DNA of 64,000 bases, from IMG/VR virus record IMGVR_UViG_3300022752_003639, positions 1 to 64,000 of that record. One strand, 5' to 3'. The notes under the pieces are model-generated. The model was not told where the DNA came from. It saw only the letters and a program-made list of their open reading frames with translations, and ran no database searches. Of this stretch, positions 2 through 50,281 are shown piece after piece; the first letter of the stretch is position 1, and each line of letters begins with the position of its first letter. The stretch is from a virus. Made by a program: the position numbers and the translations under genes.

Positions 2-307
2 ATAGGACCATGGTATCATTTTACACCAGAAATACATGGAAACTTTCTAAAAATTAATTTAGTACAAAATTTAATTAACGATCAATATACAGGAAAACAA
101 AGTTCATTTAGTAGTAAAGTCAACATTAATAAACAAGTCTGGACAAATATATCACCTAAACCAAAACTTATAGGTTATGAAGGTAGAAATAATCCGCCTG
201 GATACATACCTCATTTTATGAAAGAGTTTCGCAATACGATTATGCGAAATACAACAGACTCTGATATATATTTCGATTTAGGTACCTTCTATGAGAGTTT
301 CAAATGA
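2..307 (+). CDS. C-terminal end of an unidentified protein (partial)
   Basis: The first reading frame enters from outside the window and is open from base 2 to a TGA at 305-307, giving 101 C-terminal residues. The visible part begins with an aromatic and His-rich stretch (PWYHFTPEIHGNF) and ends FYESFK. I do not recognise the family. Its stop overlaps the next ATG in an ATGA arrangement, so the two are probably co-transcribed and translationally coupled. Base composition matches the genes that follow. The start lies upstream of the window. Confidence 0.6.
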   Translation: MGPWYHFTPEIHGNFLKINLVQNLINDQYTGKQSSFSSKVNINKQVWTNISPKPKLIGYEGRNNPPGYIPHFMKEFRNTIMRNTTDSDIYFDLGTFYESFK

Positions 308-849
308 AAACTGTAACATGGCGTACAGGCACAAACAAAGACCTAGATCAAATATTTGACGCCTATAGGATAGAACAATATGAGGATAAAAATCATAAGT
401 TATCTAAAAACTATAGCACAGAATTTTACAAGTTTTCCATTGCACTTACAATCGCATTCAATGACAATGATGAACCTGAAATATGTTCAAGCATAGCCAG
501 TAGAGATTGTTGGCCAAAAGGCGCTTATCGTATTTTAAGCAGATTATGGAAAACTAAAAATTATAGAATTACTCACAGCAAGTTTATAAGTGAAGCAATG
601 GTCGGAAACGCCAGTAGTCAAATTCAATGGCTAAAAAATAATACAGATTGTAAACTTTATTTTATAAGTCGAGAAACAGGTAACTGGATGCGCTGGACAG
701 CAGAACATTTTGATAGCCAGTATGGGTTAAAATTCATAATTGCACCTAATAAATACCTAACTTGCCCAAATGAATGTGATAATAGTTGCTGGCAACACAT
801 TATTTATAATGGCAATAAAAATATATTAAAAACATGGAAACAGCGATAA
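304..849 (+). CDS. hypothetical protein, 181 aa
   Basis: Soluble 181-residue protein rich in Trp, Cys and aromatic residues, with no signal peptide or membrane segment. The C-terminal third carries a Cys-containing cluster (CPNECDNSCW). I cannot assign it; a GNAT-like acyltransferase fold is conceivable from the general layout but no acetyl-CoA motif is evident. It starts at the ATGA overlap with the preceding gene and overlaps the downstream desaturase by 16 bases, so it looks like part of the lipid island operon. Confidence 0.7.
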   Translation: MKTVTWRTGTNKDLDQIFDAYRIEQYEDKNHKLSKNYSTEFYKFSIALTIAFNDNDEPEICSSIASRDCWPKGAYRILSRLWKTKNYRITHSKFISEAMVGNASSQIQWLKNNTDCKLYFISRETGNWMRWTAEHFDSQYGLKFIIAPNKYLTCPNECDNSCWQHIIYNGNKNILKTWKQR

Positions 850-1637
850 CTAAGCCTTTGTTACCTTTGAAAGATATACCAAAAACTGTTTGGTTATTAA
901 TCCCTATCAACCTATTAGGTTTGTATGCTCTCTATGTTATTCTTTTCAAGGATACACCTTCATGGTGGTGGATTGCTTCTTTAATAGGGTTTATCTTTCA
1001 AAAAGAGATTGGCATCAGTGCAGGTTATCATAGGCTTTTTAGTCATTATAGTTATTCAGTTTCTAGACCTATTAAGTTGTTTATTCTCTGGTGCGGGTTA
1101 ATTTCTGGACAGGGAAGTCCATATTGGTGGGCAGCACTACATAGAGGCTATCATCATAAACACAGTGATACTGATAAAGATCCTCATAGCCCTAAACATG
1201 GATTCTGGCACAGTTACATTTTATGGCTTTTTAAGATTAAAGAAAAAGATATCAGTACCAGATACATAATCGATCTAATTAGGGATAAAGATTTGGCTTT
1301 TTCTCACAAACATTACCTAGTTATCTTAACCTTAAGTCATCTAATTATCGCTTTGATAAACTTTAACTTATGGTTATTTTTTATGGTATTGCCTGCTTTT
1401 CTTACCTTACATTGCTATTCAATACAAACAAGTTTTCAACATTTAGGAAAGTTAGGTTATCAAACTTACGATACAAAGGATAACAGTTGCAATAATATAT
1501 TGTTATTTCCCATTGTATTTGGTGATGCATGGCATAATAATCATCATGCAGACCCAGGTAATCCAAACTTTGGTAAACGTTGGTGGGAAATTGACACTAC
1601 TTTTTGGATTATAAAATTATTACGTAGTCATCAATAA
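834..1637 (+). CDS. membrane fatty-acyl desaturase (DesC/Ole1-like), copy 1
   Basis: 267-residue integral-membrane diiron desaturase, predicted to insert a cis double bond into acyl-CoA or acyl-lipid chains using O2 and electrons from ferredoxin or a cytochrome. All three histidine boxes are intact: HxxxxH at H66-H71 (GYHRLFSH), HxxHH at H103-H107-H108 and HxxHH at H234-H237-H238 (HNNHH). The DTDKDPHSP stretch after box 2 is typical of delta-9 type enzymes. Hydrophobic segments lie at about 20-60, 80-100 and 160-195. No cytochrome b5 or ferredoxin domain is fused. The regiochemistry cannot be predicted. First of five desaturases in 11 kb; the next gene starts directly after its stop. Confidence 0.92.
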   Translation: METAITKPLLPLKDIPKTVWLLIPINLLGLYALYVILFKDTPSWWWIASLIGFIFQKEIGISAGYHRLFSHYSYSVSRPIKLFILWCGLISGQGSPYWWAALHRGYHHKHSDTDKDPHSPKHGFWHSYILWLFKIKEKDISTRYIIDLIRDKDLAFSHKHYLVILTLSHLIIALINFNLWLFFMVLPAFLTLHCYSIQTSFQHLGKLGYQTYDTKDNSCNNILLFPIVFGDAWHNNHHADPGNPNFGKRWWEIDTTFWIIKLLRSHQ

Positions 1638-2510
1638 ATGGATTATCCTATAAACTTCATTAGAGAAATAGAACCAGAAGAGAGTACGTATACATATGTG
1701 TACATAGACCTTGTTCATAGTTGTAATATGGAATGTAATAACTGTTATCTACCAAATAGAGATTATCCCGATGCTGATTTTGAAAAACTTAAAAATTTTA
1801 TATCTAAGTTTAATCTACGAACAGAGTTTAGGTTAATAGGTGGTGAACCTACTTTATATTCCCATTTAGTTGCATTAATATCATTTATTAAAAGTAATCC
1901 ATTGAACCATAGGGTGACATTGGTTACAAACGGGTTAAAATTATCCAGCAAACGATATGTAAAGTCTTTATCAGATGCAGGACTTAATAGAATTTATCTG
2001 AGCATGAACGGATTTGACAATGACGATATATATCAAAAATTAGATAATATGAAGTGCGCAAAATTAAAAATGAAGGCTCTGGAAAACATTTTAGACAATC
2101 AAATCGGAATGTCAGTAGGATATATTATTGTTAAGAATGTAAATGAATATTTAATTGACAATATGATTCGATATTTTAAGAAAAATAGACAACGCATGAC
2201 TTTTGAATTTAGGAATATAGGAGAAGTGGGTAGAAATATGCTTTCGGTAGATCTAGTAGAAAATTATGAATATAACGAAATAATTGATCTACTATCTGAA
2301 AAATTTAACTTTAATAAAACTGCGGTACATATTGATGACGAATATAGTAGAGTATACAAGGTAGACAAATTTATCATTAGAGTAAATGATTGGGGAATGT
2401 TCAAAAGAGGAATAGCACATTCCGCAGATAAAATTAGAGGTAGAATGACTGAAAATTATAAGGTCGCTCCATTCTTATCTCATATTAAACAGAATGAATT
2501 TAAATATTAA
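1638..2510 (+). CDS. radical SAM domain protein
   Basis: 290-residue radical S-adenosylmethionine enzyme. A CxxxCxxC cluster motif at C29, C33 and C36 (HSCNMECNNCYLPN) should bind the [4Fe-4S] cluster, and RLIGGEPTL at about 66-74 matches the GGE motif that contacts SAM. The C-terminal third lacks an obvious SPASM or twitch cysteine cluster. Substrate unknown; the family includes peptide, sugar, lipid and cofactor modifiers. It begins one base after the desaturase stop and is followed two bases later by the PP-loop protein, so it is likely in one operon with both. Confidence 0.88.
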   Translation: MDYPINFIREIEPEESTYTYVYIDLVHSCNMECNNCYLPNRDYPDADFEKLKNFISKFNLRTEFRLIGGEPTLYSHLVALISFIKSNPLNHRVTLVTNGLKLSSKRYVKSLSDAGLNRIYLSMNGFDNDDIYQKLDNMKCAKLKMKALENILDNQIGMSVGYIIVKNVNEYLIDNMIRYFKKNRQRMTFEFRNIGEVGRNMLSVDLVENYEYNEIIDLLSEKFNFNKTAVHIDDEYSRVYKVDKFIIRVNDWGMFKRGIAHSADKIRGRMTENYKVAPFLSHIKQNEFKY

Positions 2511-2512
2511 AA

Positions 2513-3652
2513 GTGCTTAAAAATCTGGGTTATTATCAGGTCGGAGACAAAATTTTTTACGGTAAAACAGAAGCTATCTATCACTCTTATTTTTCAAAAG
2601 AGGAGATAAGCTGGCATTTTTATAATAATGTATGGAATAATTTTTCTAAAACTAAAATGCATACTTTAGAAAATATTAATTTGGAAACTATCTATAAAAA
2701 CCGCGCTATGCAACTGCGAGAAAAGTATGACTACATAATTCTAAACTATAGTGGAGGTGCAGACAGCCATAATGTCTTAATGACCTTTTTGAATAATAAT
2801 TTAAGACTAGATGAGATTTATGTTCAAAGAAGTGCGTCAGTTGATGAAAAGATTTATACACCTAATAAAGAAAACAAAAATGCTGAAAATATCTTAAGCG
2901 AATGGGATTATACAATTAAGCCTTCATTAGATTATGTAACTAAGTATTTTCCAAATATTAAAATAAACTTAGATGATATATTTGAAAAAAACTTAGATAA
3001 ACTTATACATGAAGATATGTTTTTACAATCTAGTAACTTTATAGGATTGTTCGAATTATTAAGACAGTCTTCTTATTCAAACACTATTGAAAAAAATTTA
3101 AATGCAGGTATAAAAACTTGTTCTATCTTTGGAATAGATAAACCTATAGTAATTATTAAAAATAATGAAGGATTTGTGCTATTCTCAGACCAAGAAATCT
3201 CTTCTGCATCGAGATGTATTAAAAAAGACCTTAAAAACTTTAGCTTGGTTGAATTATTTTACTGGACTCCTGATATGCCCGAGATAGCATTTAAACAGGC
3301 ACAAGTAGTATATGATTTCTTTTCAAAAAATGAAACTTATAAAAAAATGATGGATATTAAAAATATAGATCAAAAAAACTTACATTTAATATATGATGCC
3401 TATCGAAAAGCTGTTATTCCTTTAATATATTCAACTTGGAATAATGATACATTTCAAGTTAATAAACCTCAACCGTATAACCAAGTTGGAAGGTCACGGG
3501 ATAAGATATACATAAATAGTGCAGATTTTTCAAATGTGATCGAAAAATATAATAGTCATTTAACAGATTGGAAAACAGTTTTAGATGAAAAATACTTCTT
3601 CAAGGAGTTAAACAAATTTAAAACTTATTTTACACCTTGGTATAAATTATGA
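2513..3652 (+). CDS. PP-loop ATP pyrophosphatase-like protein
   Basis: 379-residue protein with a GTG start. A PP-loop signature SGGADS (S80-S85) following a hydrophobic strand (YDYIILNYSGG) marks the adenine-nucleotide alpha-hydrolase fold shared by asparagine synthase, NAD synthase, tRNA thiolation enzymes and PAPS reductases, which activate a carboxyl or carbonyl as an acyl-adenylate. There is no N-terminal glutaminase Cys, so it is not a full asparagine synthetase. It may act as an amide- or thio-forming ligase on an unknown substrate. It overlaps the next gene by the ATGA pattern. Function beyond the fold is inference. Confidence 0.75.
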   Translation: MLKNLGYYQVGDKIFYGKTEAIYHSYFSKEEISWHFYNNVWNNFSKTKMHTLENINLETIYKNRAMQLREKYDYIILNYSGGADSHNVLMTFLNNNLRLDEIYVQRSASVDEKIYTPNKENKNAENILSEWDYTIKPSLDYVTKYFPNIKINLDDIFEKNLDKLIHEDMFLQSSNFIGLFELLRQSSYSNTIEKNLNAGIKTCSIFGIDKPIVIIKNNEGFVLFSDQEISSASRCIKKDLKNFSLVELFYWTPDMPEIAFKQAQVVYDFFSKNETYKKMMDIKNIDQKNLHLIYDAYRKAVIPLIYSTWNNDTFQVNKPQPYNQVGRSRDKIYINSADFSNVIEKYNSHLTDWKTVLDEKYFFKELNKFKTYFTPWYKL

Positions 3653-4530
3653 AAATTATAATAACAACACTGTTACTTTTCTTTTCTACAAACATTTTTG
3701 CAAATGAACAGTTTAAAATATTAGTAGGATTTCCTCCTGGTGGAGGACAATACCTGATAGGGACTATTATACAAAAAGGATTCGGAGATGAAGGAATAAA
3801 TTCAATATTAGTCACAAAACCTGGAGCAGGAGGAGTAATTGCTTTAAATGAATGCATTAAAAATGCAGATCCTTTAACACTATGTTTGGTGTCTCAATCG
3901 CAACTTGTTTTTTCATCTAAATTGACTTCAAATGTTGTAAATTATGATTCTAAAAATTTAACCTATGTTAAATTAATCGGCAGTAGCCCTATGGTTTTAG
4001 TTACATACAAAGATAATTTTAAGAATATAGATGAAATTATTCATGAAATAAAATATAAGGAAATTAATTTAGGTGGTGGTGCTTTAGGAAATTCTTATGT
4101 TATAAATCAGTTTTTGATATTTTTAAAGGCTTTCAAGTCTAAAAATATAGAATATAATGGAGTTGGTCCTGCTCTAAAAGACCTTATAGGAAAACATATT
4201 TCATATGTAATAGCCCCATATACGGCTGTCAAGAGTCAAATTGATTCAAATTCTATAAGATTAGTTGCTAGCTTTTCTAATAAAATATATTTTCCTAATA
4301 TACCAGTTATTGATGAGTTCGTAGTAACAGATACAATTTTTGGATTTGTAGCGAATGAAAGTATAAATGAAAGTGCAATTCAAACGCAAAAACAAGCTTT
4401 ATCTAGGATTTTGAATTCTGATAAAGTAAAAACTGCATTGTTAGATCAAGGTATCTTTATATTGAAAGACGATAATGATGTCTATTTTAAAAGAGAAATA
4501 ATAAAACAAATCAAAAACATAGAAAATTAG
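3649..4530 (+). CDS. TctC/Bug-family periplasmic solute-binding protein
   Basis: 293-residue secreted protein with a cleavable signal peptide (MKIIITTLLLFFSTNIFAN, cut near residue 19). The mature N-terminus has FPPGGGQYLIG and KPGAGGVIALNE, matching the ligand-binding loops of the tripartite tricarboxylate transporter (TctC/Bug) receptors, which bind carboxylates in the periplasm. Neither TctA nor TctB is in the window, so the protein could capture host TctAB or act as a stand-alone periplasmic ligand binder. It is slightly shorter than typical members. It ends one base from a convergent gene. A rare kind of gene for a phage. Confidence 0.82.
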   Translation: MKIIITTLLLFFSTNIFANEQFKILVGFPPGGGQYLIGTIIQKGFGDEGINSILVTKPGAGGVIALNECIKNADPLTLCLVSQSQLVFSSKLTSNVVNYDSKNLTYVKLIGSSPMVLVTYKDNFKNIDEIIHEIKYKEINLGGGALGNSYVINQFLIFLKAFKSKNIEYNGVGPALKDLIGKHISYVIAPYTAVKSQIDSNSIRLVASFSNKIYFPNIPVIDEFVVTDTIFGFVANESINESAIQTQKQALSRILNSDKVKTALLDQGIFILKDDNDVYFKREIIKQIKNIEN

Positions 4531-4531
4531 A

Positions 4532-5152
4532 TTATAAATTTAACAATTTAAGCCTATATTTTTGTTTTAGAGCAAACAGACAAATAATTGTTTCTACTTC
4601 GAAAGTTTTCTTATGTTCGGGAAAATAAAATTTATGAAGAGGGGATCTACAAGTTTCTCCAACTGCATATACAGCTTCGTAAAAACAGTTATATTTGTTT
4701 TCTATAATACCTTCTTCATTAAATTTTTTCCAAATTTTATCTAGCGCCTGTTGATGTTTTAAAGGTCGTCTACTATAAAAACTATAATATCCGTTCTTTT
4801 CTCCATGATTCATTAGAATATACATGCACTTACCGTATATATTCATACTTAATTTATAATTACCTAAATCTTTTTTTTCGAAATTGGAAAAATGTCTATG
4901 TGCGTACCAATATTGTATATTGTCTGGAAAATATCCGTTAACAGAACATACTAACTTATTATTATAATACGCACCAACAATTATTCTTTGTTTTTCTTCG
5001 AAGTCATTAGTAAATTTTTCAATCATAAAATTAGAAAAGTCGATAGTTTTTCTTTGATTTAAAAACTTGTCACTACTATTAAACAACTCTATATATGCGT
5101 CTAAATCATCAATGTCTAAAATTTTAATTGAAAAATCATCTTTATCCATCAA
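4532..5152 (-). CDS. hypothetical protein, possible GNAT-like acyltransferase
   Basis: 206-residue soluble protein with the alternating strand-helix pattern and central RIIVGAYYNNKLVCSVNGYF stretch seen in GNAT-type acyltransferases, followed by MNIYGKCMYILMNHGEKNG. No clear acetyl-CoA pyrophosphate loop (RxxGxG/A) is seen, so the assignment is weak. It overlaps the upstream ketoacyl synthase by 11 bases on the minus strand, placing it at the distal end of the minus-strand lipid operon. It converges with the TctC-like gene. Confidence 0.6.
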   Translation of the reverse strand: MMDKDDFSIKILDIDDLDAYIELFNSSDKFLNQRKTIDFSNFMIEKFTNDFEEKQRIIVGAYYNNKLVCSVNGYFPDNIQYWYAHRHFSNFEKKDLGNYKLSMNIYGKCMYILMNHGEKNGYYSFYSRRPLKHQQALDKIWKKFNEEGIIENKYNCFYEAVYAVGETCRSPLHKFYFPEHKKTFEVETIICLFALKQKYRLKLLNL

Positions 5153-6365
5153 ATTTCTCCACTACAACAGCAGCACATTTACCACCGAAACCAAAACTGT
5201 TTTTTATGCCATATTTAAAATTTGGAAATTCCCTTTTATGATTATCAGATATTAATATATCGATTGGATTTTTTAAATTTGCAATTCTTCCTATTTTATT
5301 CATATTCATAGATTGAATAAGATATGCTAATTCAATTAATCCACAGGCAGACATAGTATGACCAATATTAGCCTTTAAAGCCATTAAAGCAGAATTAGGA
5401 AAATACTCCTTTATAATATTATATTCTGATGGATCACCGTTCGGCGTGCTTGTAGCATGACAACTTATTATAGATATCTGATCTCTTTGTAAATTAGCGT
5501 ATTTAAGTGCCATATCTATACTTTGTCTAGCTCCTATAGCTGCTGGGTCCATTCCGGTTTCGTGATATAATTCTGTTGCGAAACCAATAGATTTAATCAC
5601 GGCTAGAACATTATCTCCATCTTTTTCCGCTTTAGGCAATGACTTCAAAACCAATGAACAAGCACCTTCACCCATTACAAAACCCTTACGATCTTTATCA
5701 AACGGTGATGATATAGGCGGTTCTCTTAAATCCAAAGCTCCTATGGATTGAAACATAAAAATATCAATAGGATCTACCATTACATCACACGCACCTACAA
5801 GAATTTGATCATAAACTTCTGCCTGTAGTAATCTTACAGCATAATCTATCATGAGTATTCCAGTAGCACAGGCACTAGTCATACATAGATTTATACCTTT
5901 GAATCCAAACTTTTTACAAATTAAATAACCTAAATTGTCTCTCTGAGCTGCTAAAGCCTGTCTAGGGCTTAGCCTTTTATTGTCAATTAATTTAGAAACA
6001 TTCTCTAATATTAGTTTTTGAGGACCACCTAACGACCCAAATATAACACCAGTATTAGTTTTATTCATAATATTGGCATCAAGCACAGCCCTATTAGCTG
6101 AGTATAAACCAATTATAGAATATCTATCTAGATTTTTTTGTTCTGTATTATCTAAAAAGTCTAGTTTTATTTCAGCATCGTTAATTTGAAAAGCACCATT
6201 TATTTTGATAGCAGGGTAAGTTTTTTTATCAAAATTTTTAATTTCGGATATTGGAGATTGAGCCTGTAAGTACCTATTCCAATTAATATTAATATCTTCC
6301 CCTAAGGCATCGACTATACCTAATCCAATGATAGCAATTTCATCCATTTTTTTATAAAATGTCAT
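5142..6365 (-). CDS. fabF: beta-ketoacyl-[ACP] synthase II (FabF-like)
   Basis: 407-residue thiolase-fold condensing enzyme, full length for the FabF family. It condenses an acyl thioester with malonyl-ACP to lengthen fatty acids. The catalytic triad is intact: C166 in TSACATG, H303 in SCHATSTPNGDPSE and H336 in KANIGHTMSACG; the glycine-rich C-terminal NSFGFGGKC is also present. No acyl carrier protein, malonyl transferase or ketoreductase is visible, so it must work with host ACP. It sits 14 bases downstream of a desaturase in a minus-strand operon, suggesting coordinated chain elongation and desaturation. A second in-frame ATG at codon 7 is possible; neither has a strong ribosome binding site. 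Confidence 0.92.
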   Translation of the reverse strand: MTFYKKMDEIAIIGLGIVDALGEDININWNRYLQAQSPISEIKNFDKKTYPAIKINGAFQINDAEIKLDFLDNTEQKNLDRYSIIGLYSANRAVLDANIMNKTNTGVIFGSLGGPQKLILENVSKLIDNKRLSPRQALAAQRDNLGYLICKKFGFKGINLCMTSACATGILMIDYAVRLLQAEVYDQILVGACDVMVDPIDIFMFQSIGALDLREPPISSPFDKDRKGFVMGEGACSLVLKSLPKAEKDGDNVLAVIKSIGFATELYHETGMDPAAIGARQSIDMALKYANLQRDQISIISCHATSTPNGDPSEYNIIKEYFPNSALMALKANIGHTMSACGLIELAYLIQSMNMNKIGRIANLKNPIDILISDNHKREFPNFKYGIKNSFGFGGKCAAVVVEKFDG

Positions 6366-6379
6366 TTAGTCTTGAAATA

Positions 6380-7195
6380 TTAAACTGTATAAGCTCTAGG
6401 ATCATTTCTATCAATTATAAAATATTTCTTAACTAACCAACCGGAAAAATCAAACTCCCCTTTTTTCATAGCCTGATTATATTCGCTTGGATAAGCATGA
6501 TGATTATTATGTAATCCTTCACCTAGAGTATACCAATGTATCCATTTATTATTTTGACTTTTGTCAGAAGTTTCAAAATTTCTATATGAAATACTTGTTG
6601 GTACATGGCTTAAAGTGGTGACAAACACACCGCTTCCGAATATATACCAACCCAAAGGAGCAAATAATATAAAAATAGGAATATGCCAATCTATTAGTCC
6701 TAACACTAATGAAAATATAATCAGACAAGCCCATATCTTAAAATAATTATGATGTACAAATTTAATTGTAGGGTCTCGTATTAAATCCTTAGGTAATATT
6801 CTTACCTGTTTAATTTTATTAAACCATTCAAAAGGTTTAATTTCCCATAATCCTAAGCTTTCTTTTATACTATTTTTTGGACTATGAATATCAAGATCTT
6901 CATCACTATATCTATGGTGATGTCTATGACTAGTAGCATATAATATAGGACTTCCTGCACCAATCAACACACTTGCCCAAGTTAAAAAAACATGTTTCTT
7001 TTTAGTGGTAACAAATGATCTATGAGCGAAATATCTATGCATAGCTATATGATTAGCAGGAATCACTACAATTTTACTAATCAAAAATGCTAAAATAGTC
7101 CACAACCATTCACCACTAAAGAATGGATATATTAAACTAAACCCCCAAGAAAGCAAACCTAATGCCCAAATGGTTCTTAATTTGTATATGTTCAT
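6380..7195 (-). CDS. membrane fatty-acyl desaturase, copy 2
   Basis: 271-residue diiron desaturase with intact boxes: H53-H58 (MHRYFAHRS), H90-H93-H94 (SHRHHHRYSDED) and H229-H232-H233 (GEGLHNNHHAYPS). Hydrophobic segments at about 8-50, 68-85 and 150-200 fit the usual four-helix membrane arrangement. It is more divergent from copies 3 and 4 than those are from each other; its first box follows PANHIA rather than GGEIG. It overlaps the upstream hydroxylase gene by the ATGA arrangement and is followed closely by the FabF-like gene. Confidence 0.92.
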   Translation of the reverse strand: MNIYKLRTIWALGLLSWGFSLIYPFFSGEWLWTILAFLISKIVVIPANHIAMHRYFAHRSFVTTKKKHVFLTWASVLIGAGSPILYATSHRHHHRYSDEDLDIHSPKNSIKESLGLWEIKPFEWFNKIKQVRILPKDLIRDPTIKFVHHNYFKIWACLIIFSLVLGLIDWHIPIFILFAPLGWYIFGSGVFVTTLSHVPTSISYRNFETSDKSQNNKWIHWYTLGEGLHNNHHAYPSEYNQAMKKGEFDFSGWLVKKYFIIDRNDPRAYTV

Positions 7196-7782
7196 ACACC
7201 GTATTTGCTTATAATTATATTAAAAATGCTTTCGTCGAAGAACCCAATCGTAAATGCTCTTCTATCGTTATTAATATTATGTACACTATGTATCAAATCT
7301 GTACGCATAATATTCCATCGGTGGCTTGGAAAAATTGTAGAATTTACCTTACTTAATACATTTAGGTCAAAACAATGAGACCATGGATCCCTAATTAGTT
7401 CTTTACCATTTTCCTGCCACCAAATAGTTTCAACGTTTGTTCCACCGGAGGTTAGCAAAAAACTAATACAAAATGGACCACGGGTTTTTCCGTCTGTATG
7501 AGGATGTAACTGGCAGATATTATTGCCATTTGCTTTTATACTTTGAAAACCTATAGTTAAAGTTAATCCTTCTAATTCAGGAATTAAATTATTTATAAAT
7601 TGTGTATACCTATCAGTTAGCGGCCATCTAGAATAAATTGCATCATCTACTTCTGTATTATCAAGTTGCTTTATTTTTTGTTGAGATAGCTTTTGTTTGA
7701 GAGATCCTGTTTTAGAATCTTCGATGATATCGATTATATCTTTTGGCAATTCTGGTAAATCTAAAATAGAGAATGTTTTCAT
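7192..7782 (-). CDS. Fe(II)/2-oxoglutarate-dependent oxygenase-like protein
   Basis: 196 residues from the ATG at 7782, chosen because it makes a precise ATGA overlap with the upstream desaturase stop; the frame extends 15 codons further upstream without need. The double-stranded beta-helix signature is visible: HxD at H95-D97 (QLHPHTDG), distal H165 (LIHSVHN) and a 2-oxoglutarate-binding Arg at R174/R175 (RRAFTIGF). The pattern fits aspartyl/asparaginyl beta-hydroxylase or PhyH-like enzymes. Substrate unknown. Sandwiched between two desaturases, so hydroxylation of an acyl chain, lipid head group or protein are all possible. Confidence 0.75.
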   Translation of the reverse strand: MKTFSILDLPELPKDIIDIIEDSKTGSLKQKLSQQKIKQLDNTEVDDAIYSRWPLTDRYTQFINNLIPELEGLTLTIGFQSIKANGNNICQLHPHTDGKTRGPFCISFLLTSGGTNVETIWWQENGKELIRDPWSHCFDLNVLSKVNSTIFPSHRWNIMRTDLIHSVHNINNDRRAFTIGFFDESIFNIIISKYGV

Positions 7783-8543
7783 TTTTTTTGCAAACAATAC
7801 TTTATAAAAAGACCTGGTAAGTCCCATTCAAATTTTTTAACTGCATAGTAAGGACTTTGGCTATTGGCATGATGATTATTATGCAGTCCACTTCCAAGCA
7901 TTAAGATATTTACTAAAGTATTATTCTTACTATTATCGTTTGTATCAAAATTCCTGTATCCCCATTTATGGCATACAATGTCTATCAATAAACTACTAGT
8001 ATGAAAAGTCCATACCGCACTTAAACTAAACAAAAATATAGCCAACTTTAAATCAATTAAAGCGGTGATGCTATATACAATTATAACAAATTCTAAATAG
8101 TGTCTATGTAAGAAATTATGAAATGGATCCTTGGCCAGGTCTGAAATTATTTTAGGAGAAAATTTAACCATAGGCCAATTTACCAACCAAACATCATACC
8201 ATTTATTATAGAGTGGACTTTGAGGATCTTTTCTTGTATCTGAATATCTATGATGTATTCTATGTGTTCCTACCCATCCATAACTACTTCCTAGAAAATT
8301 TAATGATCCTAATAATATCAAAATTATTTCTTTCCATCTTTGAGTATTAAAACTTCTATGGGCACATAATCTATGATAACCTATTTCGCCTCCAATCTTT
8401 CCAAATAAGATCCAACCTAGTATAGTTAATAATAAATCTTTATAATTCCAATCTATATAAAATAATAAAATTATTATAAGGTGATGGAAAACAATTAGTA
8501 TCTTAAATTGTATATCCATATTTGGTTTATAAAATTTTAACAT
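7779..8543 (-). CDS. membrane fatty-acyl desaturase, copy 3
   Basis: 254-residue diiron desaturase. Boxes: H57-H62 (GYHRLCAHRS), H94-H97-H98 (THRIHHRYSDTRKDP) and H221-H224-H225 (GSGLHNNHHANSQ). The GKIGGEIG lead-in, GSLNFLGSS and IDIVCHKWGYRNFDTNDNS stretches are shared almost word for word with copy 4, so the two are recent duplicates or a co-transferred pair. Overlaps the upstream hydroxylase-like gene by 7 bases and the downstream oxygenase by 4. Confidence 0.92.
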   Translation of the reverse strand: MLKFYKPNMDIQFKILIVFHHLIIILLFYIDWNYKDLLLTILGWILFGKIGGEIGYHRLCAHRSFNTQRWKEIILILLGSLNFLGSSYGWVGTHRIHHRYSDTRKDPQSPLYNKWYDVWLVNWPMVKFSPKIISDLAKDPFHNFLHRHYLEFVIIVYSITALIDLKLAIFLFSLSAVWTFHTSSLLIDIVCHKWGYRNFDTNDNSKNNTLVNILMLGSGLHNNHHANSQSPYYAVKKFEWDLPGLFIKYCLQKK

Positions 8544-9319
8544 GGAATAATAGGACCTTGGTATGCCAGGATAGCTTTTTTTATTACCTTTTCTAAAGTA
8601 GAATTATCTCTTACGTCATTATAAATTAAAATATCAATTCGTTCTTTATCACTATAATTTTTATAAGCATGTTGATGATAACCGTTTAAGTACCAAATTT
8701 TACCGCATGTAAAATTAGCAACAAAATATTTCGAATTATTTTTATAATACGATAATTCTTCAAAAAAATATCTATCGCTATGGACCTCTTTAGAAACAAT
8801 ATGCGCTACATTTTTATCAGCAATAATTGGTATATGAATTATACACTGTTCGGGTTTATTATATTTTTTTATTAATTCGTCATTTTGATGACTATGCCAA
8901 CCTAGAGCGTGTCCTGGCCCAGATTTTACAATTTTGACCAATAAAGGTTTATCTGTTATACTAAGAACCAAATCCATTAATAATGGAAAATTTTTGGTTA
9001 CTTCTGTAGGATACCATCTTTGATCTTCAACGGGCCATTCGTAAAAATCTTCTAACTCGTTATTATCTTTATTTTTCCATCTAGCAAAGTGTTCCCTTAC
9101 AATAGAAGAATTTCCTGACTTATAAATTGTTGTAAGAGCACATTGTTTATACGATTTGTGAATTTCCTCAAGGAATGGTGTCAATTGAAAATATGGCGGA
9201 TGATAATTATGCCAAGTTCTATTTTTTAAAACTTCAGATTTTATACTATTAATATCAAATTGAATGCCTAATTCCATAAACGGAATAAATCTAAGATTGT
9301 TTATTGTTTTCAACTTCAT
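8537..9319 (-). CDS. aspartyl/asparaginyl beta-hydroxylase-like protein
   Basis: 260-residue protein matching the C-terminal half of the Asp_Arg_Hydrox family (a cupin-fold Fe(II)/2-oxoglutarate group): GHALGWHSHQND (H142, H144), CIIHIPI (H162), GKIWYLNGYHQHAYKN (H215, H217) and the following Arg (R227 in ERIDIL). The order His, HIPI, W..N..H..N, R is the family hallmark. Its target is unknown; relatives hydroxylate Asp/Asn side chains, and some act in secondary metabolism. It overlaps the upstream desaturase by 29 bases if the first ATG is used; an ATG at codon 15 would remove the overlap. Confidence 0.72.
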   Translation of the reverse strand: MKLKTINNLRFIPFMELGIQFDINSIKSEVLKNRTWHNYHPPYFQLTPFLEEIHKSYKQCALTTIYKSGNSSIVREHFARWKNKDNNELEDFYEWPVEDQRWYPTEVTKNFPLLMDLVLSITDKPLLVKIVKSGPGHALGWHSHQNDELIKKYNKPEQCIIHIPIIADKNVAHIVSKEVHSDRYFFEELSYYKNNSKYFVANFTCGKIWYLNGYHQHAYKNYSDKERIDILIYNDVRDNSTLEKVIKKAILAYQGPIIPC

Positions 9320-10070
9320 TTTTTATTAAAAGGTATTTAATTACTAATCCAGGTAAATCAAATTCTCCTGGTTTATGATTAAAGTATGGATTACCTGGTT
9401 GGGCATGATGATTATTATGTAGACCACTACCTCCTGTAACAATATTAACTAACAGATTATTTCTACTTCGGTCTAGAATGTCATAATTCCTATATCCGTA
9501 TTTGTGACAAACTATATCTATCAGATAAGCACCAACATGAAATTGTATCACAGATGGAATAATAATCACAAAAATTAAAAACTTATAATTAATTAATGCC
9601 AACAAAACAATTGTTGTATAACTTAATATAAAATAATTTTTGTGAATAAAGAGATGCCATTTATCTTTAATCAAATCGGAAATGTTTTTTGGACTTACAA
9701 TAAAAGGTTTCCAAACGACTAACCAAACTTTCCAAAGTTTATTAAAATATGGACTGTGAGGATCCTTATCAGTATCTGCTGTTTTATGATGAATTCTGTG
9801 AACTCCACACCAAGATAAACTACTTCCTACAAAATTTAAACTACCTAAAATTAGTAGGATTCGTTCCTTGGTCTTTGTAGTTTTAAAACTACGGTGGGCA
9901 AATAATCTGTGAAATCCTATTTCACCTCCGATTTTTCCTATTAAAATATATGATAAAAATGTGAAAAGGAAATAATACCATTCAACATTAACGATAAAAA
10001 AACTTGAAATAAAAAGTATGTGGGTGGTTAATAGTAATGAACGAATTTTAGTAAGAGTATTAACGTGCAT
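9291..10070 (-). CDS. membrane fatty-acyl desaturase, copy 4
   Basis: 259-residue diiron desaturase. Boxes: H54-H59 (GFHRLFAHRS), H91-H94-H95 (VHRIHHKTADTDKDPHSP) and H218-H221-H222 (GSGLHNNHHAQPGNP). Closest in sequence to copy 3 (shared GKIGGEIG, GSLNFVGSS and LIDIVCHKYGYRNYD). Hydrophobic segments at about 12-48, 70-85 and 145-180. Overlaps the upstream small gene by 11 bases, so both lie in the same minus-strand transcript. Confidence 0.92.
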   Translation of the reverse strand: MHVNTLTKIRSLLLTTHILFISSFFIVNVEWYYFLFTFLSYILIGKIGGEIGFHRLFAHRSFKTTKTKERILLILGSLNFVGSSLSWCGVHRIHHKTADTDKDPHSPYFNKLWKVWLVVWKPFIVSPKNISDLIKDKWHLFIHKNYFILSYTTIVLLALINYKFLIFVIIIPSVIQFHVGAYLIDIVCHKYGYRNYDILDRSRNNLLVNIVTGGSGLHNNHHAQPGNPYFNHKPGEFDLPGLVIKYLLIKNEVENNKQS

Positions 10071-10440
10071 AATTGTTTATGAAATCCTGTTCGGAAATTT
10101 CAACAATTTCGTAAGTAAAAGTAAATTTATTTGAATACCCCTGTTCATTATGAAAAATAGTATTTTCATTGTAAAGAACATCTAGTCTATTTTTACATTC
10201 TAATGCGGTTTCTTGAGTATCATATATTCGTTCTGAAATAAGAATATTTCCATTTAACCAACGTTTGAATCCTATTTGTCGACCATCATTTACATATTCT
10301 TTAACTATTTCTTGATAAAGAGGTACATTACCTGGTTTAAAAACGTATGGTGTTAAATTAAAAAGTGTAAGTTGAGCATCCTCACTTAAAAGGTTAGTAT
10401 CATGAATTATTGTAAATGTTTTATAAACCCAAAAGCTCAT
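10060..10440 (-). CDS. hypothetical protein, 126 aa, first gene of the minus-strand lipid operon
   Basis: 126-residue soluble protein with no recognised motif; it alternates hydrophobic and charged residues like a small alpha/beta protein. No membrane segment and no iron- or cofactor-binding cluster. It is the promoter-proximal gene of the leftward operon that carries desaturases 2-4, both hydroxylases and the FabF-like gene, and may be a regulator or an accessory subunit; that is only inference from position. Confidence 0.65.
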   Translation of the reverse strand: MSFWVYKTFTIIHDTNLLSEDAQLTLFNLTPYVFKPGNVPLYQEIVKEYVNDGRQIGFKRWLNGNILISERIYDTQETALECKNRLDVLYNENTIFHNEQGYSNKFTFTYEIVEISEQDFINNYAR

Positions 10441-10450
10441 ATTTTGTCCT

Positions 10451-10478
10451 TATAAATAAAATTTATTATATATTTATT
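10451..10478. promoter_or_regulatory. divergent T4-late-type promoter boxes
   Basis: The 46-base gap between divergent genes holds TATAAATA on the plus strand (10451-10458), 29 bases before the plus-strand desaturase ATG, and AATAAATA on the minus strand (complement of 10471-10478), about 31 bases before the minus-strand start at 10440. TATAAATA is the T4 late consensus; similar boxes precede structural genes at 46570 and 46844. The two halves of the lipid island may therefore be switched on together, late in infection. Confidence 0.5.
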
Positions 10479-10486
10479 GATAGACT

Positions 10487-11263
10487 ATGTTATATTCAAA
10501 CGTTTCGAGCATTAAAATATTACAATTAATCAGTACTGTGATTACATTGTACCTTATGACATTACAATTTAATCTTTATTGGTGGCTTTTATCTTTTTTT
10601 GTTTATTTTTTAACAGGTTGCTTAGGTATTACAATAACTTACCATCGTTATCTTTCTCATAAGGCATTCAAAATGCCTAAAGTTTTTGAATATCTTTTTA
10701 GTATGTTTGGTGCTCTTGGAGGAACAGGATCAACTATAGGTTGGTTAGCCGTGCATAATGTTCATCACAAATTTAGCGACAAAGATAAGGATCCGCATAG
10801 CCCACATTTACTCGGGCCCAAATTGTTGCTCACAAATTATAATTATAAATTTAATCCTCTAGATGCTAAATTATTACTTAGAGATAAATTTCATATTATA
10901 CTGCATCAGTATTATAATCTAATACTTTTAATTTGGGCATTCTTATTATTGGCTATTAATTACAAACTTTTTTTGTTTGCCTTTATTGTTCCTGTTTGTT
11001 TTCAAATTTGGGCAAGTAATATAAGCAATTACGCTAACCATATGTTTGGATACCAAAATTACGAAACAGGCGAAGGAAGTAAAAATACCTGGTGGGTAAG
11101 TGCAATTACTTGGGGTGAAGGATGGCATAATAATCATCATGCAGAACCCTGGCATTACAGTTTTCAAAGAAAATGGTGGGAAATAGATATTAGCGGATAT
11201 GTAATTTATTTAATTGTTATACTTACAGGTAATAAAAAGAGCCTATATAATTCAAAATATTAA
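10487..11263 (+). CDS. membrane fatty-acyl desaturase, copy 5
   Basis: 258-residue diiron desaturase. Boxes: H53-H58 (YHRYLSHKA), H90-H93-H94 (VHNVHHKFSDKDKDPHSP) and H213-H216-H217 (GEGWHNNHHAEPWHY). Copies 1 and 5, both on the plus strand, share the WHNNHHA...WWEID ending and are nearer to each other than to copies 3 and 4. Hydrophobic segments at about 12-50, 66-86 and 140-178. It is preceded by a T4-late-type box and followed by the tRNA cluster promoter. Confidence 0.92.
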   Translation: MLYSNVSSIKILQLISTVITLYLMTLQFNLYWWLLSFFVYFLTGCLGITITYHRYLSHKAFKMPKVFEYLFSMFGALGGTGSTIGWLAVHNVHHKFSDKDKDPHSPHLLGPKLLLTNYNYKFNPLDAKLLLRDKFHIILHQYYNLILLIWAFLLLAINYKLFLFAFIVPVCFQIWASNISNYANHMFGYQNYETGEGSKNTWWVSAITWGEGWHNNHHAEPWHYSFQRKWWEIDISGYVIYLIVILTGNKKSLYNSKY

Positions 11264-33284: not shown

Positions 33285-35258
33285 GTGAACTTAAAAAAAC
33301 TTTTGCCTGCTTTACTTTTGTTTAATTCAGTAGCATATTCACAGGTAGAATCTTTACCAAATAGTTATAAGGTCGTAGGAATAGACACAGTCTGGCAATA
33401 TGGGTACAAAGGTTCTGGAGTAAGAGTTGCAGTTATTGATAACGGTTTTGATTTAAATCATAAAGATCTTGAAGGAAGATTTTGGAAAGCAAGCAATTTT
33501 TATGATCTTACTAGTAATGTTAAATGGGCAGGCCATGGAACTGGCATGGCTAGTATTATTGGAGCTAAGGCAGGCAATGGTGGAGTAGTAGGTGTAGCGC
33601 CAGAATCACATCTATGGTTAGCGCAAATAGGCGCTGGCCAGTACAGTCCACTTATGAGCACGGCAGCATTTAATTTAGCACTAAATTGGGCTAGCTCATG
33701 GAGTGCTTCTGTGATTAATGCTAGTCTAGGGTATGCATATGATGATAATTTTATTAAATCAGCCCGATATGATACTAAGACAAATACTTATATTGTAGAC
33801 CAATCTCTGCTAAGAACTGTAACTAAGACTGATTCATTGGCCGTGGCAACAGGCCGTAATTCTATTATTGTTATCAGCGCAGGCAACCAATCATTACCAT
33901 ATGCTAGTTTTCCTGCGCAGTTTGCTTCGAGACTAGATATCTACGGTAATCTAATCTTAGGTGGAAAAATGTTAGTGGTAGGCAGTGTTTCTGATGACGG
34001 AACAATCAGCACTTTTAGCAATAGAGCTGGCCACATTTGTTCAATGCCTGTTGCTAATACTTGCTTAGATCTTGTTAAAACTACTGATTTTTTTGTTGTA
34101 GCACCTGGAAACAAAATTCCCCAGGCACAGGCTTTAGGAAATTCTACAATTTATGGATCTGGAACCAGTGAAAGTGCAGCATTAGTCACTGGTGGTATAG
34201 CATTATTAAGGCAAGCATGGCCTCAACTACGCTCTGAACAATTAGTTAAATTAGTATTGAGTACAACTAAAGATCTCGGAGCTCCTGGCACAGATAATAT
34301 ATATGGCAGAGGTATGGTAGACTTTGCCAATGCTGCTAAATCTCAAGGTATAATAAAACTAGCCTCTGCTAATATGAAACTAGGATCCGATATACCGCAA
34401 CCTAGTAATGTTATTAATAATATTGACGGAACAAAATTATTAGGTCAGGGTAATTTTACATCATTACTGGTTTCAAGCAATATACTTAAGACTGCTCAGG
34501 TGATAGACAGCTATGATAGAAATTATACAGCAGACTTTACTCGAGCTATTGCCAAATTACCTGTTGTGTATAATCCAGATAGTCCTTGGTTATCATTTTC
34601 TAGCATGATTAAATTACCGATTGATAAAAATAAAGACTTAACCATACATAAGTCTTATAATGGATTAGCTACTGAACTGAACATTTATCAGCATAACTGG
34701 GTTTATAACCTACAGGTAGGTAATCAGCAAGATTTCAATGGCTATCTAGGTAATTCTGGATATGGATCTCTATCCTTGGGCAGTAGTTATACAAATTGGA
34801 TGATGTTAGGCATAGAAAGAAAGTTAACTGATACAACTAATCTAGTAGCAAACTATGGTCAAGGTATGACAGATATTTTGAATTCAACTTACAGCATGAT
34901 TTATACCGAACCTGGATTACGATCTGCAACATGGAGTGTCGGGCTCAAATCTAATAATATATTTTATGAGCAAGATGTTTTACAATTGAAAATAGCTAAT
35001 CCTGTGCATATCGTTAAGGGCTATGCACAGATTACGGCAGTAACAGGATATACTTATGAGGAAGATGCAGAAGGCAATTTTACAGCATCACCTGTTATTG
35101 GAAAAGAGCGCATAAATTTAGCTCAAAATAATATAAAGCCAATACTATCTTTAAGTTATAAACGATCTTTATCACATGTAAGCAATATCGGCATATCTTG
35201 GTCTGGTTCTTCAGATTCTTATAAAATGGGATTATTTTATAATTATATATTCAAATAA
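33285..35258 (+). CDS. secreted subtilisin-like serine protease with possible C-terminal beta-barrel
   Basis: 657 residues, GTG start, signal peptide MNLKKLLPALLLFNSVAYS. An S8 catalytic domain follows: D52 (VAVIDNGFD), H84 (GHGTGMAS), oxyanion N201 (SAGNQS) and S295 (GSGTSESAA). The C-terminal 250 residues are rich in alternating strands (LSLGSSYTNWMMLGIERKL; KPILSLSYKRSL) and end YNYIFK, like an autotransporter or outer-membrane barrel. No propeptide is obvious. It could act on the host surface or in virion release. Own promoter. Confidence 0.85.
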   Translation: MNLKKLLPALLLFNSVAYSQVESLPNSYKVVGIDTVWQYGYKGSGVRVAVIDNGFDLNHKDLEGRFWKASNFYDLTSNVKWAGHGTGMASIIGAKAGNGGVVGVAPESHLWLAQIGAGQYSPLMSTAAFNLALNWASSWSASVINASLGYAYDDNFIKSARYDTKTNTYIVDQSLLRTVTKTDSLAVATGRNSIIVISAGNQSLPYASFPAQFASRLDIYGNLILGGKMLVVGSVSDDGTISTFSNRAGHICSMPVANTCLDLVKTTDFFVVAPGNKIPQAQALGNSTIYGSGTSESAALVTGGIALLRQAWPQLRSEQLVKLVLSTTKDLGAPGTDNIYGRGMVDFANAAKSQGIIKLASANMKLGSDIPQPSNVINNIDGTKLLGQGNFTSLLVSSNILKTAQVIDSYDRNYTADFTRAIAKLPVVYNPDSPWLSFSSMIKLPIDKNKDLTIHKSYNGLATELNIYQHNWVYNLQVGNQQDFNGYLGNSGYGSLSLGSSYTNWMMLGIERKLTDTTNLVANYGQGMTDILNSTYSMIYTEPGLRSATWSVGLKSNNIFYEQDVLQLKIANPVHIVKGYAQITAVTGYTYEEDAEGNFTASPVIGKERINLAQNNIKPILSLSYKRSLSHVSNIGISWSGSSDSYKMGLFYNYIFK

Positions 35259-46843: not shown

Positions 46844-49800
46844 ATGAGTAACGCCCGTCCTAATCTTGTTGATTTACCTGTTTTAACTGATCCAGATCCG
46901 GCTACAACGCTGTTTATTGTGCAGGATTCAGCAGTTAATCAAACCTTATCTGTAACTTTAGCACAAACTTTACTAGCACAAAAAGGTCCTACAGGGCCTC
47001 AGGGTCCACAAGGTATTACTGGCCCTACAGGACCAAGTGGTCCTCAGGGTATAACAGGGCCGCAGGGACCAATTGGTATAACTGGACCACAAGGTCCACA
47101 AGGCGTAACTGGACCACAAGGTCCACAAGGTCCACAAGGCGTAACTGGACCACAGGGTCCAAGTGGACCACAAGGCGTGACTGGACCACAAGGTCCAATT
47201 GGAGTTACAGGACCACAGGGCCCAATAGGACCACAAGGTCCCACAGGAGCAGGTGTTACAGGACCAACAGGTCCGTATAGTACAGTAACCAACAACCTAG
47301 AAGGAGGAGCCCTAGGTAGCATTCCATATCAAAATGCATCTAGTGTTACAGTATTTTTAGGTATCGGCGCTAATAATGCAATTTTAAGATCTAACGGAAG
47401 TATACCAACCTGGGCATCAAGTGGCACTGTACAAGTTGGATTTGCTACACAAGCCAAACAATTATATATTAATAATGTTTTAGATGATGCTATACCTGCT
47501 GTAAGATATCCGGCGCTTTCGGCAGGACCAAATGCGTTTGACGATGTCTCTGTTAACGCAAATTTATTTTACGACCTTTCTAAACAGAAACTTTCAGTCG
47601 GAGTAGTATCAGTAACATCAACAACAAATTCTACCAGTACCACTACAGGCGCATTTACAGTTTCTGGTGGTATGGCAGTGGCGAAAGATGTATTCATTGG
47701 CGGAAATGTAAGTATACTAGGTGCATTAAACATAGGAACTAATCTTAGCGTTAATAATGTTAATACATCTACTAATTTGGCAGGAGGTGTAGCAGGAGCT
47801 ATACCATATCAAACATCAACAGGACAAACTAGCTTTTTTGGTCCGGGTAGTAACGGTAATGTTTTAGTTGCCAATGGCTCAGCTATGCCGACGTTTAATA
47901 ATACATTAACATTATTCGGTTTAGCAAATTCTACTAATCAGTTTACCGGTGCTTTTCAAGTTAGAGGTGGTGCAGGAATAGGTCAAGCTCTGTGGGTAGG
48001 CGGTAAAATTGTTTCTTTAAGCACGGACCAAGCTACATCTACATTAACAGGCGCATTAGTAGTATCTGGGGGTGCAGGAATTGGTGGTAATCTATATGTA
48101 GCTGGTGAGATCGTAGCAGATAAATTAACTATTCAATACACCACTGTTACTACCACGTTGGTAGTAACAGACGACGTTATAGAAACTACGAATTCAACAC
48201 AGGCAATAAGCACCACGACGGGAGCATTAAAAGTAGCGGGCGGTGCTGGTATAGGTAGAAATTTATATGTCGGAGGTACTATATTTGGTACAGCTACCAA
48301 TGCCACTTCAGCAGCTAATTTATCAGGTGGTGCCCAAGGAAGTATACCTTACCAGACTAACATAGGTCAAACAGCATTTATTCCAATAGGCACAAGTAGT
48401 TATATCCTAGTTTCAAACGGTAGTACAGCAACATGGTTAAATCCTAACAACTTAAGTTCTGGCGCAAGTACAACGGCTTCTAACTTGTCATTTGGTGACC
48501 AATACTTAATCCCCTACCAAACAGGTCCAGGTAGTACAACATTTGAATACGGGTTTGAATATTGGTACAACGATAATTTATTCAGTGTAACAAATGTTGT
48601 TATAAATGGCACTATTGGTTCTCCTTCACCCAACACAGGATCTTTAAGAGTTTTGGGAGGAGTAGGCATAGCACAAAACGTAGCAGTTGGCGGGCAAGGA
48701 TTATTTGCCAACGGTGCTAATGCAAGTTCTACTAACAGTGGTGCAGTTATTGTAACCGGTGGAGTTGGTATTGGCGCAAATTTATACGTAGGTGGACAGA
48801 CTAATCTAGCAGGAATTAACACCGTAGTAAATGCAACAAATGCAGGCTCTACCAATTCAGGCGCACTACAGGTAGTAGGAGGAGTTGGAATAGGTCAAAG
48901 TTTAGTTGTAGGCGGACGCACGACTATTACTAATATTACATCAGCTACTTCAACAATAACTGGTGCATTTAATGTGTTTGGCGGAGTAGGAGTTGGCGGA
49001 GACATATTTGTAGGAGGAACCATCTATGGTAATGCCAGTGGTATTATTTCAACAGCTACAAATTTAAATGGTGGGGTAGCCGGACAGACACCTTATCAAC
49101 AAAGTCCCGGAAGAACCGTTTTCACAGGTCCAGGTAATGCCGGCGAAGTAATGGTCAGTAGAGGATCAGGAGGACCTGCATTTTTTAATACACTGACGTT
49201 GGATGGATTAACTGTTTCTGTAAGTACTTTGACAGGGGCTTTTCAAGTAAGGGGTGGAGCTGGCATAGGAGGAGATTTATATGCTAGTCGTATGCGAACA
49301 GTTTTTGGTACACAAGCTACATCAACTATAACAGGCGACTTAGTTACACAAGGTGGCGTAGGCATAGGTGGTAATTTATATGTAGGTGGCAATATTGTAG
49401 GTAACCTTGGTGTAGCTGTAAATACAGCCAGCCAGGTTAATACAGTTTCATTACCTATTTCAGGTACATATTATCCAACTTTTGTAGATTCAAACAATGC
49501 TTCTTCTAGTGGTGAATTATTATATACTACTAGCAGTGTTTCTGTTAACCCAAACAGTGGATTTTTCACAGCCAATGGAGTTTCTTTACCACAAAATACT
49601 GTAGGTACAAATTACTTCGGAGTTTCGGGTGAACCAACATATTATATTGGTCAAACTGTTGGTAACACAGACGGCTGGAAAATCTATGGCGAAAGCCCGG
49701 CAGGAAACGAAACAAGTAACTTTATTTTACAATCAGAAAACGATTACGATCAGAATGAATCTATAAGATTTAGATTTAAACGTACCTACGGCACATATAT

Positions 49801-50281
49801 TACTAATGATATACTTGTGGCAAAATATGATCAAGTTTATATTACCACAGGAACTTTCCAAGTAGGTTATACCAGTCCACAAGCAGGATCAACAGCATCA
49901 ATAAATGGTTCATTATATGTTAATGGTGAAATCAGAGCCACTGGAGATGTCACAGCCTATTATACTTCAGATGCCAGTTTGAAAGAAAACATAAGATTAA
50001 TTGACAACCCAATTACACTGATAAACCAAATTCACGGTTACTATTTTGACTGGAAGGAAGATTTTATTGAAAGTCGTGGCGGAGAAGACGGGTTCTTTGT
50101 AAGAAAGCAAGATGTTGGTGTTATTGCTCAAGAGATAGAAAAAATACTTCCGCAACTTGTCGCTACGAAACCAAACGGGCATAAAGCTATTCAATATGGA
50201 AAAATTATTCCATTACTTATTGAATCAGTTAAATATCTTGCGTCAGAAGTAGAAAATTTAAAAAATAACTTAAAGAAATAA
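46844..50281 (+). CDS. collagen-repeat tail fibre with S74 intramolecular chaperone
   Basis: 1145 residues. Residues 48-144 are about 32 collagen-like G-x-y triplets, mostly GPQ, GPT and GVT. They are followed by two interleaved repeats: about ten GAxxVxGGxGIGxxLYVGG units and five NLxGGxxGxIPYQTxxGxTxF units, giving a long fibrous shaft. The C-terminus (about 1040-1145) is a peptidase S74 chaperone: SDASLKENI with the Ser-Lys dyad, then [17 protein letters not shown] and [16 protein letters not shown]74 domains trimerise the fibre and cleave themselves off. Likely a receptor-binding or side fibre. Confidence 0.9.
46985..47275 (+). repeat. collagen-like G-x-y coding repeat
   Basis: About 32 nine-base units coding Gly-x-Pro/Thr/Val triplets; GGACCACAAGGTCCA-like units recur nearly unchanged. 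The repeat is prone to slippage, so length differences between close relatives are expected. Confidence 0.9.

Follow-up and report, generated by a model that had tools for sequence, protein, structure and literature searches.

A viral island of five divergent desaturases and a ketoacyl synthase: part of a phage acyl-chain pathway?

Why would a virus carry five different fatty-acyl desaturases side by side, together with a beta-ketoacyl synthase (KS)? The question is raised by the record IMGVR_UViG_3300022752_003639 (138,457 bp, linear), of which positions 1 to 64,000 are hereafter called the window. An initial annotation, made from the letters alone, had placed between 834 and 11263 five full-length desaturases, each with three His boxes, together with a complete FabF-type KS, and our profile searches bear out both parts of this description. 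Where phages carry desaturases, these have so far been interpreted as genes, single or repeated, for softening the membrane of the host. Here we consider that the island may instead be part of a pathway in which an acyl chain is built and then desaturated repeatedly. The six enzymes are listed below, where L091 stands for a sister virus (IMGVR_UViG_3300023179_000086, L091/L241), and dN and dS are the nonsynonymous and synonymous divergence from it.

834..1637, plus strand: desaturase D1; PF00487 69.2 bits; nine His; closest viral relatives 52-57%
6380..7195, minus strand: desaturase D2; PF00487 64 bits; 76% ortholog in L091, dN 0.18 / dS 1.88
7779..8543, minus strand: desaturase D3; PF00487 74 bits; ortholog in L091, dN 0.19 / dS 1.32
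9291..10070, minus strand: desaturase D4; PF00487 69.1 bits; 77% ortholog in L091, dN 0.18 / dS 3.0; 53% to D3
10487..11263, plus strand, divergent from the minus-strand cluster: desaturase D5; PF00487 58.7 bits; 79% ortholog in L091, dN 0.13 / dS 1.17
5142..6365, minus strand: FabF-like KS of 407 aa; PF00109 2.9e-27, PF02801 3.9e-21; Cys-His-Lys-His

All five desaturases (254-271 aa) lie well above the gathering score of PF00487 (58.7-74.0 bits against 29.7), and E-values of 1e-15 to 1e-20 per protein exclude a chance match; no further copy of PF00487 was found elsewhere in the 138,457-bp record. The eight His of the three boxes and a ninth His are all kept, giving nine His ligands in each protein, as in 391 of 401 viral desaturases. 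The tenth residue of the metal site holds a water and is Asn in SCD1. Of the island proteins only D5 shares this Asn, D1 and D2 having Thr and D3 and D4 having Asp, as read from a profile of D1-D5 that aligns this residue with the SCD1 Asn. It is Asn in 302 of the 401 viral desaturases, and the position is variable rather than strictly defining. The profile matches the stearoyl-CoA desaturase structures of mouse and human SCD1 (4ymk, 4zyo) at about 1e-34, and the best NCBIfam model is DesA (NF049918), at 54.9-84.4 bits and thus under its curated 400-bit cut-off. SCD1 and DesA are relatives at the level of the fold, from which the island proteins differ by that score and by the replaced Asn in D1-D4. 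A PHROGs search returned an unnamed family only, and among isolate phages only Pelagibacter phage Mosig and one Acinetobacter phage assembly carry a relative, at 26-30% identity. Both domains of the FabB/FabF superfamily are present in the KS, as are the Cys-His-Lys-His residues, and the protein matches FabF structures (1ox0, 5.2e-48); the four catalytic residues are kept in 44 of 44 viral relatives. Against the housekeeping FabF equivalog TIGR03150 it scores 242.6 bits, far under the cut-off of 493.75. KS matches in the isolate phage collection mostly resemble host DNA in unannotated records.

Are the five copies repeats of one gene? Their pairwise identity is 30-34%, except for D3 and D4 (53%). 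In a FastTree tree of 207 rows, from which polyyne desaturases are absent, viral and cellular desaturases part almost cleanly (two changes). The exception is the desaturase of L395, a 5.7-kb contig in an Oligoflexia metagenome-assembled genome, which groups with the viral ones; this contig may itself be viral, a misbinned phage. We do not trust the deep branching order because the tree was made with FastTree and has long branches. D1, D2, D3/D4 and D5 fall in separate starred viral clades, and on this ground the copies belong to old phage-specific subfamilies, which is consistent with different roles. The initial annotation had joined copies 1 and 5 in one subgroup and taken copies 3 and 4 for recent duplicates. 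The former grouping is contradicted by the tree, where D1 and D5 sit in different clades; as for the latter, D3 and D4 are indeed sister-like, yet each has its own ortholog in L091 (75-77%), so that their duplication is not recent.

The arrangement of the genes is also conserved. Eight genes run on the minus strand from 10440 to 4532 (a small open reading frame (ORF), D4, a hydroxylase-like ORF, D3, an oxygenase-like ORF, D2, the KS and a GNAT-fold protein), overlapping by 4-49 bp with the sole exception of a 14-bp gap between D2 and the KS. At the other end, the plus strand carries a cut PP-loop protein, another GNAT-fold protein and D1, and this order of PP-loop, GNAT and D1-type genes is seen again in L012 and L013. 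The sister virus L091, with eight desaturases (by a Pfam count over the whole record) and a KS, keeps a block of the same order, namely D5, small ORF, D4, ORF, D3, ORF, D2, KS and GNAT, at identities of 79, 42, 77, 64, 73-75, 56, 76, 52 and 62%, respectively. We chose L091 for the test of selection because a near-identical contig, L010, has 0 differences in the KS and D2-D5 and thus gives no selection signal. The comparison covers D2-D5 and the KS, D1 being without a clear ortholog in the L091 sequence examined. By the NG86 method, dN is 0.13-0.19 and dS 1.2-3.0 for D2-D5, and for the KS they are 0.41 and 1.35; dN/dS of D2-D5 is roughly 0.06-0.15, values that are approximate because dS is near saturation, though clearly below 1. 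These ratios indicate that D2-D5 and the KS are under purifying selection relative to L091.

Does such an arrangement recur? Six viral scans gave 71 KS loci and, in one scan alone, at least 555 desaturase relatives; pooled, they form 266 distinct groups, 246 of them with a desaturase. One desaturase is found in 156 of these, two in 51, three in 22 and four or more in 17, with a maximum of ten; Pfam counts over whole records confirm the highest numbers (10 in the record of L361, 8 in that of L091). We then shuffled the gene order within loci 500 times. Desaturases adjoin each other 76 times (23.2 expected), KS genes 22 times (5.6), acyl carrier protein (ACP) genes 25 times (8.2), and the two GNAT families represented in the island, c2 and c6, 60 (16.3) and 51 times (8.4), and for each pair none of the 500 shuffles was as high. 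The counts are of non-independent events, because related viruses were counted more than once. In the same shuffles SDR, FabZ and PP-loop genes were not enriched as immediate neighbours of desaturases. Pairs of KS and desaturase genes nevertheless turn up in several settings that differ considerably (L127-L144, L370/L385/L394, L378, L361 and the window), and a desaturase is present in 21 of 38 KS-seeded viral groups. On the cellular side, the closest desaturases share about 27-37% identity, and in 79 of 80 such loci the flanks examined contain a single desaturase. The module of desaturases and condensing enzyme, which the initial annotation had put forward as a candidate new pathway, is thus real and recurrent; in itself it is no novelty, since five-copy phages and a combination of fabF and desaturase were already published (PMC7300359, PMC7029224).

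Some relatives carry more of an acyl pathway than the island does. L011, L015, L019 and L020 have KS, ACP and FabZ genes in a row, AcpS beside a GNAT-desaturase pair, and a second ACP after a desaturase. In L361, ten desaturases, a KS, an ACP and AcpS lie within about 15 kb, together with an ATP-grasp gene and a rubrerythrin/rubredoxin pair, the latter member by a rubredoxin-like match. In L165, seven desaturases stand in tandem, accompanied by AcpS, ACP, an SDR-like gene and, at 7827-8852 of this viral contig, a chalcone synthase-like type III polyketide synthase. Above the Pfam cut-off, PF00550 (ACP) was present in 13/20, PF01648 (AcpS) in 10/27 and PF07977 (FabZ) in 6/27 of the chosen records, fractions that are not population rates because the records were picked for their desaturases.

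From the genes present and their synteny, the purifying selection, the intact active sites, the recurrent adjacency and the GNAT fold models, we see about an even chance that the island belongs to a jumbo-phage pathway in which an acyl chain is built or lengthened and afterwards desaturated more than once. In the order of steps that we infer, the KS would condense acyl units, several desaturases from old separate subfamilies would work on one shared chain, each at its own position or stage, and the GNAT-fold enzymes beside them would move the finished acyl group onto an amine or another acceptor; the product, the acceptor and the benefit are suppositions of the same kind. By analogy with the relatives, where the chain probably rides on a phage ACP, with AcpS of the phage to activate it and FabZ as the dehydratase, the chain would be tethered to ACP; in this phage either the host's ACP would serve as carrier or the missing part of the genome would encode one. 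Chain building by the KS, repeated desaturation and transfer by GNAT proteins is the simplest reading that makes use of the enriched neighbours. That desaturases are so often linked to GNAT-fold proteins, a condensing enzyme, dedicated carrier proteins and the enzyme activating these suggests that some phages encode a multi-step acyl pathway with its own product. If so, phage-specified lipids or small molecules would be made in infected cells, and the phage desaturases of 250-270 aa would be a large enzyme set, of which we collected 401 distinct ones. A bolder version, in which jumbo phages have complete acyl-natural-product clusters, with KS, ACP, the enzyme that activates ACP and a dehydratase all encoded by the phage, 5-10 desaturases working in sequence, and a GNAT enzyme coupling a polyunsaturated or alkynyl chain to an acceptor, giving a compound or lipid that the host cannot make, seems to us rather unlikely.

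Several observations weigh against the proposed pathway. A KS is nearby in 16 of 230 desaturase-seeded groups; most desaturase-bearing viral loci are without one, so the KS is not obligatory. The adjacency of AcpS to desaturases is insignificant in the gene-order shuffles (6 against 4.2 expected). No ACP, AcpS or FabZ was found in the 138 kb of this record or in the 73 kb of L091, both of which are fragments, and since the contig is incomplete the phage may have an ACP of its own. In L127-L144, where KS and desaturase are paired, the small ORF that precedes the KS has no ACP-like attachment site as judged by eye. In addition, DesA, the closest named family, has members whose substrates are phospholipids and not ACP-bound.

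The desaturases might rather work independently on phospholipid or acyl-CoA chains of the host and fluidise its membrane, the copies providing dosage or chain preference and the KS adjusting chain length. This model, which Zhong et al. 2020 (PMC7300359) propose for five-copy phages, is in our view less likely than not but a serious rival, because it explains the many viral loci with a single desaturase and no KS or ACP, as well as the resemblance to DesA, the best family match, and to SCD1, the solved relative. Dosage, however, predicts neither ancient divergent subfamilies side by side nor the enrichment of ACP, KS and GNAT genes beside desaturases, and the differing metal-site residues among the copies suggest roles that are not redundant.

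Multiple desaturases together with ACP and AcpS also recall the bacterial alkyne/polyyne clusters, in which several membrane desaturases surround one dedicated ACP (in our case seen in relatives) and three desaturases plus ACP are required (PMC8406139). A phage cluster of this kind would serially desaturate an ACP-bound chain to a polyene or polyyne and thereby make a bioactive compound or lipid tag, and the rubredoxin-like match and rubrerythrin of the L361 array and the polyketide synthase of L165 fit it. The bacterial clusters also need FAAL, thioesterase and rubredoxin (PMC8406139), whereas FAAL (PF00501) was found in 0/20 viral records, including the fragment studied here, and PF00975, the one thioesterase family sought, likewise in 0/20; we therefore rejected membership in the bacterial polyyne clusters. 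Rubredoxin is absent from this fragmentary record, the single match being that by the L361 array. With the phage desaturases moreover in a clade separate from the sampled cellular relatives, among which polyyne desaturases were not included, we regard a polyyne-like phage cluster as improbable. More remote still is the idea that the PF00487 proteins, as hydroxylases or oxygenases of another type, act on non-lipid or glycolipid substrates (e.g. lipid A or surface sugars) in a surface-modifying cargo region. The PF00487 superfamily does include hydroxylases, oxygenase-like, PP-loop and sugar genes lie nearby, and the tenth metal-site residue is altered in D1-D4, but all nine His are present as in true desaturases, and KS, ACP, AcpS and FabZ in relatives indicate acyl chains, which makes this reading very improbable.

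How does the island compare with known phages? Membrane lipid desaturases encoded by cyanophages, the function of which was reportedly studied by Roitman and colleagues in 2018, resemble it by description only. Two phages of the cryopeg and sea-ice viruses, both from cryopeg, have five desaturases each, read as serving membrane fluidity (Zhong et al. 2020, PMC7300359); like the copies in the window they are SCD-like, have three His boxes and are under purifying selection (here D2-D5), and the main-text passages of that article do not mention a linkage to KS, ACP, AcpS, FabZ or GNAT. Freshwater pelagimyophages PMP-D carry fabF, a stearoyl-CoA desaturase and a 2-oxoglutarate oxygenase (PMC7029224), comparable to our KS, desaturases and putative oxygenase-like ORF; they differ in being T4-like, of 130-160 kb and not relatives of jumbo phages, and the passages on them give gene content only, with no multi-copy array described. 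Roseobacter prophages share a phage-borne KS and ACP in fabG-acpP-fabF sets ordered like the E. coli fab operon, with no desaturases reported in those sets (PMC8224337), and a global survey counts fatty acid biosynthesis, in aggregate, among virus-targeted pathways (PMC11360552). Searches of the open-access literature turned up no account of a phage that combines desaturase arrays with KS, ACP, AcpS and FabZ, which is weak evidence.

The record itself is probably incomplete. Its gp46-like protein is 65, 62 and 58% identical to those of viral records of 364,554, 399,796 and 354,959 bp, respectively, and about 50% to gp46 of Pseudomonas jumbo phage PA5oct, and the nearest matches of its baseplate wedge protein are jumbo phages; from this likeness we infer that the 138,457-bp contig is about one third of a jumbo phage genome. 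The reference phages closest by these two proteins are too distant for naming a host. Reading the ORF lists by eye, we recognised neither a terminase nor a major capsid gene, no model-based search having been made.

The other genes of the island are as follows; both GNAT assignments are based on AlphaFold2 models and Foldseek, not on Pfam.

2..304, plus strand: PP-loop ATPase (family c1), truncated by the contig start so that only its C-terminal end remains; hidden Markov model (HMM) of 80 viral relatives, E 1.3e-17
304..849, plus strand: GNAT-fold protein (family c6), overlapping D1 by 16 bp; AlphaFold2 pLDDT 95; Foldseek GNAT acyltransferases, E about 1e-4
4532..5152, minus strand: GNAT-fold protein (family c2), closing the minus-strand cluster; AlphaFold2 pLDDT 87; Foldseek 1tiq, E 8e-9; 62% ortholog in L091
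7192..7827, minus strand: putative 2-oxoglutarate/Fe(II) oxygenase-like protein (c50); H-x-D...H motif by eye; 56% ortholog in L091; no Pfam match
8537..9319, minus strand: putative Asp/Asn-hydroxylase-like protein; weak HMM match to family c3, E 3e-5; 64% ortholog in L091; no Pfam match
10060..10440, minus strand: small ORF, first gene of the minus-strand cluster, overlapping D4 by 11 bp; 42% counterpart in the same place in L091

The Foldseek match of the c6 protein is moderate (TM about 0.5), and a Pfam search with it gave no match. Intact homologues of c1 weakly resemble QueC and asparagine synthase. Directly after D1 lies a radical SAM protein (1638-2510), whose family adjoins desaturases 12 times against 4.3 expected and whose matches below cut-off include the tetraether lipid synthase Tes model. 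A TctC/Bug-type periplasmic substrate-binding protein (3649-4530) recurs in about 20 related viral loci. At 2513-3652 the window and the otherwise near-identical L010 (12717-13763) diverge, with 30 synonymous and 22 nonsynonymous codons, which suggests that strains vary here or that an assembly junction lies at the edge of the island. Directly after D5 and ahead of two tRNA genes, 11273-11301 matches the sigma-70 consensus TTGACA-17-TATAAT at 12 of 12 positions; the promoter scan as a whole carries no information (84 sites against 79 in shuffles).

Three further loci of the window are worth recording. An ORF at 33285-35258 resembles, by eye, a secreted subtilase with a C-terminal beta-barrel-like part, which is unusual in a phage, and a long fibre-like ORF at 46844-50281 has, also by eye, collagen-type G-x-y repeats and an S74-like C-terminus. 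Between 42328 and 45021, a kinase-like ORF, a dehydroquinate-synthase-type cyclase (PF01761, 6.9e-36) and an SDR protein (PF00106, 6.2e-37) follow one another and look like a pathway of the cyclitol or sugar type.

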